From contig JAUCQE010000281.1 of NCBI GenBank assembly GCA_030372865.1, positions 1 through 35,096 on the forward strand: a stretch of 35,096 nt of DNA. The letters run 5' to 3'. The notes below the pieces were generated by a model. The model made no database searches. It had not been told where the DNA came from and saw nothing but the letters and a program-made list of their open reading frames with translations. Below are positions 1-3,095 of the stretch, piece after piece. A program made the translations under genes and the position numbers. This DNA comes from Pyrinomonadaceae bacterium. Its GTDB lineage: Bacteria > Acidobacteriota > Blastocatellia > Pyrinomonadales > Pyrinomonadaceae. Within the stretch, counting starts at the first letter, position 1. Each line of letters opens with the position of its first letter.

Positions 1-25
1 AGCGTCAGATGTGTATAAGAGACAG
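1..25 (+). other. Residual Nextera/Tn5 sequencing adapter (AGCGTCAGATGTGTATAAGAGACAG)
   Basis: Exact match to the last 25 nt of the Nextera read-1 adapter TCGTCGGCAGCGTCAGATGTGTATAAGAGACAG, at the extreme contig edge. Confidence 0.97.
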
Positions 26-1334: not shown

Positions 1335-1481
1335 ATGCAAGACCCGAGAGAACCTAATACTATCGACGCACCCGAGGACGACGCGGCACGCGAACCGAAT
1401 ACCCTGAATGACACTGAGTCGGACGTCGTGCGTGAGCCAAATACCGGTGTTGCTCGCGAACCGAATACGCGGCAAGAGTAG
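1335..1481 (+). CDS. Small acidic repeat peptide with four REPNT motifs (48 aa)
   Basis: ATG at 1335 preceded by AAAGGAG at 1321-1327; translation MQDPREPNTIDAPEDDAAREPNTLNDTESDVVREPNTGVAREPNTRQE*. Synonymous codon variation among the four repeats. Too short for the supplied ORF track. Confidence 0.75.
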   Translation: MQDPREPNTIDAPEDDAAREPNTLNDTESDVVREPNTGVAREPNTRQE

Positions 1482-1493
1482 CGAAACCGTCAA

Positions 1494-3095
1494 TTAATCG
1501 CCAAGCCCGATGCTCTCCATTAATGGATGCCACCGGCGGTCATTCTTGAGGTTCCGGAATCGCGGGTCGACCTTAGCGTGGGTCAGGCCCGGGTCCCGGG
1601 CTTCATACGCGCGTTCGAGCCAGGCAAACGCTTCGTCCGCCTCTTTCCTTTCGGCGTGGACTTCGGCTATCTGATAAGCATCACCGACCGTCGCTTCGCT
1701 CTTAAGTCGTTCGAGGGCCGCGTCAGATGCGGCAATGTTCCCGTCGCGATAGCTGATCATTGCGAGTGCCCAATCCCGCCAAAATTCATCGCTCTCAGCG
1801 GCTACAATTTCCTTCGCACGCTCGGTCTCGCCGCGATCTAACAGCACCATCGCAAGCAGAGCACTCGTCGCGACACCGCTCGTCGGCATCTCGAGCGACC
1901 GATTGAAAGCCTTCTCCGCCTCATCCAACAAACCTGCGCAATGGCATAGCAGGCCGAGGTTATGCCAAACCGGAGCGCTTAACGGATCGTGGTCGAGCAC
2001 GCGGCGAGAGAGTGCAAGTGCACGGTCAAAATCGCCCTTTTTATAGGCCAGGATGCTCGCTCCGTCGAGCACCGACGAACTTCCCGGGGCAAGAGCCAAC
2101 GCGCGATCGTAAGACGCCTCGGCGACTTTGATGTCCCAGTCGTAGGCTGCCTGTATCCTGCCTAATTGAGCGTGGGCCTCGGCAAGTTCCGGCTCAAGTT
2201 CCAGTGCACGCATCACCGCCGCTCGAGACAACTCAAAGGCTTCATCGGTCGACGCCCACGACTTGCCCGCGCAGATCGAATAGGCGCGGGCAAGTTCAGC
2301 CCAGCACAGTGCAAATGCCGGATCGATATCCAACGCACGCTTGTAGCAATCGATGGCCGCCTCCGCATTTTCGCGGGTAAAGATCGAAAGGCGGTAACGC
2401 CCGAGGAGCATCAGCCGATACGCTTCAGGGTCAGCGGCTCGTCCGCGGACCGCCTCGGCGACGTCGGATTCAACGTCCTTAAGCGAGACATTTTCGGGTT
2501 CGACGCCCAAAAGAAGGCCGCGAAGTTCCTGCACGACTGACTGTGCGATGTCGTCCTGTACCGCAAAGATATCGTCGAGCGTACGGTCGTAGGTCTCCGA
2601 CCACAGCTGAAAGCCGTCGCTTACTTTCACGAGGCTGACGGAGATCCTGACCCGTTCGCCCGCCGATCGGACGCTGCCTTCCAAGACCGTCGCAACACCG
2701 AGCGAGCGACCTATTTCGGCAATGGTCGTGCTGGCGTTCTTAAAGGAGAACGCCGACGTACGCGCGGCGACACGCAGCCCGTCGATCTTTGAGAGCACGT
2801 TAAGAAGCTCTTCAGCGAGGCCGTCGGAAAAATAGTCGCCTTCCTGCCCCGAACTGAGATTTCGAAACGGGAGTACCGCAATGGAACTAAGGGGCGGCGG
2901 GGCGGTCAAAAGCGGCGACGTGAACTGTGCCGTGGCGTCCTCCGACGTGACCAGAACGTGCATCGGAACGGTCACCGCTTCGTGCTCAAGTGTAGAAAAG
3001 CTGCCCGGCCCTTCGAGCAGCGAACTGCCGTCATCGAGACAGAATTTCAGCGTATCGTCGTAGTAATCCCGTCGGCATTGTGGACAGCGTTTCAT
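1494..3095 (-). CDS. Zinc-ribbon / TolB-like (FlgO-type) / TPR repeat protein
   Basis: N-terminal CPQC...CLDDG zinc ribbon; SSIAVLPFRNLSSGQEGDYFSDGLAEELLNVLSKIDGLRVAARTSAFSFK is the TolB-like N-terminal domain seen with adenylate-cyclase/TPR proteins; TPR-like repeats follow. Confidence 0.85.
   Translation of the reverse strand: MKRCPQCRRDYYDDTLKFCLDDGSSLLEGPGSFSTLEHEAVTVPMHVLVTSEDATAQFTSPLLTAPPPLSSIAVLPFRNLSSGQEGDYFSDGLAEELLNVLSKIDGLRVAARTSAFSFKNASTTIAEIGRSLGVATVLEGSVRSAGERVRISVSLVKVSDGFQLWSETYDRTLDDIFAVQDDIAQSVVQELRGLLLGVEPENVSLKDVESDVAEAVRGRAADPEAYRLMLLGRYRLSIFTRENAEAAIDCYKRALDIDPAFALCWAELARAYSICAGKSWASTDEAFELSRAAVMRALELEPELAEAHAQLGRIQAAYDWDIKVAEASYDRALALAPGSSSVLDGASILAYKKGDFDRALALSRRVLDHDPLSAPVWHNLGLLCHCAGLLDEAEKAFNRSLEMPTSGVATSALLAMVLLDRGETERAKEIVAAESDEFWRDWALAMISYRDGNIAASDAALERLKSEATVGDAYQIAEVHAERKEADEAFAWLERAYEARDPGLTHAKVDPRFRNLKNDRRWHPLMESIGLGD

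Follow-up and report, generated by a model that had tools for sequence, protein, structure and literature searches.

A pentapeptide-repeat small protein family encoded tail to tail with one TPR protein in an acidobacterial genus: a candidate multivalent ligand

We analysed a stretch of 35,096 nucleotides (the window) from a Pyrinomonadaceae bacterium, forward-strand positions 1–35,096 of contig JAUCQE010000281.1 in assembly GCA_030372865.1, using translation, homologue searches and comparative codon analysis. At window positions 1335–1481 on the forward strand lies an open reading frame of 147 bp encoding 48 aa, in which, exactly as a preliminary description had reported, the pentapeptide REPNT occurs four times in different codons. 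The units start at residues 5, 19, 33 and 41 (period 14, 14 and 8) and are encoded, all on the forward strand, by AGA GAA CCT AAT ACT (1347–1361), CGC GAA CCG AAT ACC (1389–1403), CGT GAG CCA AAT ACC (1431–1445) and CGC GAA CCG AAT ACG (1455–1469). Both expression signals proposed earlier are present on the same strand: the Shine-Dalgarno sequence AAAGGAG at 1321–1327, seven nt before the ATG, and a sigma-70-like promoter, TTGACA-17-TACATT, at 1275–1303, with 10 of 12 bases matching the consensus. A gap of 12 bp (1482–1493) separates the stop codon from that of a convergent gene on the reverse strand (1494–3095), which encodes the 533-aa TPR protein that we call the partner; no terminator-like site was found here. 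The contig begins with a Nextera transposase adapter (window positions 1–25, with AGATGTGTATAAGAGACAG at 7–25), so that the bases at its very start are an artefact of library preparation or assembly, as are the residues with which the M1-peptidase frame there begins.

A protein search covering 60 genomes, whose matches were checked by frame-aware inspection, yielded convincing homologues of the repeat protein in the same acidobacterial genus only; two further divergent members were found via the neighbouring TPR gene, bringing the total to ten genomes, each a different species, and these carriers are scattered across the genus in an rpoB tree. Outside the ten, weak protein matches turned out to lie in antisense or in unrelated frames. 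A profile HMM (A4) built from the ten proteins matched exactly the same ten among 162 genomes of the class (E<=0.001). At the DNA level, a pattern of two nearby EPNT units matched, in 41 genomes of the genus, this locus, its homologues and one place within an unrelated ORF (G001:C177), while the reversed control pattern gave zero matches; in 396 genomes of the phylum it matched this genus and only two single sites outside. EPNT-x-EPNT matches in other phyla were mostly low-complexity stretches of longer proteins or unrelated short frames, lone REPNT sites elsewhere in four genomes were few and not far above the level of control patterns, and no viral contig carried the tandem EPNT pattern. Several of the genomes are MAGs, and incompleteness may affect presence and absence, though for several absences we confirmed that the site itself is intact.

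The start codon and the open frame are kept in all ten members, and a GGAG-type Shine-Dalgarno sequence precedes nearly all of them (AAGGTG in G009), in agreement with the earlier view that this is an independent gene. TTGACA/T followed after 17–18 nt (counted by eye) by a hexamer beginning with TA also lies 5' of the homologues in G020, G010, G007 and G016. The genes contain three to seven units and encode products of 47–60 aa. What the preliminary description missed is that the motif, compared across the family, varies by lineage: G000 (the genome of the window), G020, G010, G007, G009 and G029 have REPNT proteins with four to seven units, G001 and G019 have the QEPNT type, G008 has five QDPNT units, and G016 has three of the KEPNN/REPNN type. 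As might be expected from the earlier statement that no family was recognisable, the protein has no profile match in Pfam, NCBIfam or PHROGs, and our literature search found no paper describing the motif. All ten proteins are hydrophilic, with net charges from -4 to -11, and none has a hydrophobic or signal segment (in every one, mean hydropathy over 15 residues stays below zero even at its maximum). AlphaFold2 gave no fold for the 48-aa protein (pLDDT 60, pTM 0.11), which, as anticipated, is acidic and, by this model, intrinsically disordered.

Random reordering of the 48 residues, repeated 200,000 times, never produced a protein with one 5-mer present four times, and reached three copies once. 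The 30 REPNT units of the family are written in 26 different DNA sequences, and these differ solely at synonymous sites (third positions and the first position of the Arg codon). Codon difference between units is 0.55 within one gene and 0.59 between genes, which suggests that the copies are old at the DNA level. In pairwise comparisons, pN/pS was 0.00–0.14 for motif codons (pS 0.55–1.0) and 0.12–0.65 for the remainder of the gene, and five of six pairs showed clearly stronger constraint on the motif, the two values being similar in the sixth, G010/G007 (0.14 for the motif, 0.12 for the rest). By these comparisons, purifying selection acts on the motif at the peptide level, as had been proposed from the single locus, and positions 1335–1481 are a genuine small gene whose four units are a product neither of chance nor of recent DNA duplication. 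Within each lineage the units are homogeneous as peptide, not as DNA, and all units of one protein change type jointly (R to Q, E to D, T to N), a pattern that fits several identical sites reading one partner.

At the N-terminus of the partner, which lies convergent to the repeat gene, is a Cys-rich motif (CPxC...C); the protein also comprises an alpha/beta TolB/FlgO/CadC-like domain and about eight TPRs. Pfam TPR models scored above cut-off, the structural model shows tandem helix pairs, and TPR proteins are among the fold matches. The alpha/beta domain resembles part of the CadC periplasmic domain, in which an alpha/beta domain is likewise combined with a helical TPR-like part (3ly7 group; normalised by target length, the TM-score is about 0.55); unlike CadC, for which we know of no small repeat-peptide partner, the protein encoded in the window shows no Pfam match to a DNA-binding domain. 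In the orthologues of G008 and G016 the Cys-rich motif is replaced by what we take, from the sequence, to be a Ser/Thr-kinase-like N-terminus, so the N-terminus varies while the TolB-TPR part is constant. The orthologue group is set apart by at least 48% identity (about 40% for the next paralogues) within a family that, at first look, has 31–93 TolB-TPR candidates per genome in the genus. A run of four tandem Zn-ribbon-like TolB-TPR paralogues on one strand in G028 (L210:4210-11221) is a strong local expansion of this family. On the TPR tree, the replacement of R by Q at the first motif position falls on roughly a single branch. Among group-specific invariant TPR residues, 19 lie in helix A and three in helix B; we dropped this as support for a REPNT ligand, since an unpartnered paralogue clade shows a like bias (33 and 11), and the conservation therefore indicates only some conserved ligand for the group.

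The comparison also revealed what the preliminary description, looking at one locus, had not noted, namely that the genus-restricted repeat family is always convergent with this one TPR protein. The two genes lie tail to tail in ten of ten genomes, with a gap of -4 to +58 bp, and none of about twenty other TPR paralogues that we checked has a repeat ORF at its 3' end. Within the class, a search with the HMM of the repeat protein and one with the TPR protein select the same ten genomes; the two were run independently, so their agreement does not follow from the method itself, even though the genes are linked. We found the pair in at least four different chromosomal settings. In G000, G020, G010 and G007 it seems to lie in one common region, with a gene upstream that we take, by sequence recognition rather than profile search, to be aldehyde-dehydrogenase-like (in G000 this gene is on another contig, also ending in the M1 peptidase, and the join is inferred); the pairs of G009, G029, G001 and G019 adjoin a PRC-MgtE_N-CBS gene; that of G008 adjoins genes that we take, again by sequence recognition, to be obg and nadD, and that of G016 lies elsewhere. 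The same sites lack both genes in G032 (near G010 and G020) and G036 (near G009 and G029), and in G021, G028, G013 and G006 they hold other TPR paralogues or kinase-type relatives with no repeat ORF. The presence of the repeat gene is thus tied to one TPR orthologue group, not to the site or to TPR genes generally.

Only the TPR gene is a constant neighbour: no gene for a modifying enzyme, for a protease or for a transporter adjoins the repeat gene throughout. Both genes of the pair evolve faster than the MgtE-CBS neighbour, with identities of 76% (TPR), 77% (repeat protein) and 95% (neighbour) between G009 and G029, where the TPR genes are cut by contig ends, and of 62%, 64% and 90%, respectively, between G001 and G019. 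For the TPR gene, G020 and G010 share 83% identity, about as much as G007 and G010 (84%), while rpoB is 99% and 88% identical in these pairs, perhaps due to fast evolution or to horizontal exchange of the locus. At some of these sites we saw further genes: in G010, the stretch from the upstream neighbour to the repeat gene holds an extra TPR paralogue and a small gene pair (L051:5319-5944) that we recognised by sequence as nucleotidyltransferase/HEPN-like, and where G009, G029 and G019 have the repeat/TPR pair, G013 (L211:3425-7942) and G006 (L212:217-3282) have kinase-type proteins encoded convergently to the PRC-MgtE_N-CBS gene.

With moderate confidence, we read the repeat protein as an intracellular, disordered protein whose multivalent linear motifs would make it a ligand or regulator of the TPR protein encoded convergently. 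The two tail-to-tail genes would form a two-gene module in which (R/Q/K)(E/D)PN(T/N) units, several per chain, would bind the concave groove of the TPR superhelix and regulate the TPR protein, through competitive occupation or clustering. The logic would resemble that of Phr peptides and Rap, minus the export signals. The TPR protein is the natural candidate because it is linked and because its fold class binds short extended peptides (PMC3601992), and with one partner facing all units, homogeneity as peptide but not as DNA is to be expected. Of the functions floated in the preliminary description, a repeated motif that binds a partner is thus kept as the best reading, while physical binding itself, like translation in the cell, the binding site, the stoichiometry and the direction of the effect, is something that we infer. 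The idea of a substrate or tag peptide found no support; a threonine phospho-substrate in particular is disfavoured, since the motif Thr is replaced by Asn in the KEPNN set of G016, where the partner is a Ser/Thr-kinase fusion, and a general phospho-acceptor role is therefore unlikely.

The repeat protein might instead be small, disordered and independent of the TPR protein, with some other binding target, the TPR gene being no more than a conserved neighbour. Tight linkage alone could keep the two genes together, linkage can persist by descent where all homologues belong to one genus, and the TPR family is large; however, persistence of the linkage in several settings, and relatives without both genes at the same sites, make this rather unlikely.

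A second alternative comes from the likeness to Rap-Phr and other RRNPPA systems, and would make the repeat protein a Phr/AimP-like pheromone precursor, whose pentapeptides would be cut out, exported, taken up again and bound by the TPR protein. There too a small ORF adjoins a TPR protein gene and the units are pentapeptides, phr products (39–57 aa; PMC3601992) are close in length to those seen here, and some Phr propeptides carry several pheromone copies in tandem (PMC11343458, PMC3601992). Yet the repeat proteins have no export segment and have more identical units (up to seven), the gene order is tail to tail, the host is an acidobacterium and not Gram-positive, and no processing or transport gene is constantly nearby. 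The TPRs, moreover, are joined to a TolB/FlgO-like alpha/beta domain with a Cys-rich or (in two orthologues) kinase N-terminus, and where an RRNPPA receptor has an HTH or response-regulator-binding domain, no DNA-binding or response-regulator-binding part was detected, Pfam finding only TPRs. We therefore consider such a pheromone quite improbable.

That the transcript matters rather than the peptide, as a convergent antisense RNA to the TPR mRNA, is very doubtful: the close gene ends and the lack of a detected terminator do make overlapping transcripts likely, but motif codons change almost only synonymously, start and frame are kept while most other frames hold stops in part of the set (the antisense VFGSR frame, open in places, is interrupted by stops in some relatives and does not keep a constant phase with respect to the TPR stop), and there was no Rfam match. 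A RiPP precursor with repeated cores, suggested by short units, variable spacers and a sub-threshold match of the partner to TIGR04510, a putative peptide-modification cyclase (38.7 against a cut-off of 400 bits), is just as hard to credit, since no modification enzyme is conserved beside the gene and the match is limited to the shared TolB-TPR part (residues 123–475, profile positions 305–636).

A ligand of the TPR protein would follow the same principle as the C-terminal Hsp70/Hsp90 peptides read by the TPRs of Hop and Tom71, if the groove reads a short acidic motif, and Tom71-peptide complexes do occur among the partner's fold matches; unlike those ligands, which end in a free C-terminal EEVD, the REPNT motif is internal and repeated. 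We tentatively suggest a previously undescribed Acidobacteriota module, in which a multivalent pentapeptide-repeat ligand is dedicated to one convergent TolB-TPR protein (or TPR-kinase), motif and receptor diversify together, and neither export nor quorum sensing is involved. If such a dedicated, gene-linked ligand is real, peptide-TPR regulation would reach beyond exported pheromones, and the ligand would be a first handle on what TolB-TPR domains read; to our knowledge, no ligands are known for the TolB-TPR relatives, of which each genome of the genus has dozens of candidates. Real genes of 50–60 codons, easily missed, can be recognised by comparison. A second conserved small ORF lies 47–58 bp downstream of a TPR stop, and convergent to it, in L069, L071 and L075 (G003, G018 and G014); it has a core of about 54–56 aa with one likely membrane segment (MKGN..LAIAVCVACFLIGYLAYLSVAEIVGF), and it adjoins a different TPR paralogue group, possibly forming a second small-protein/TPR pair.
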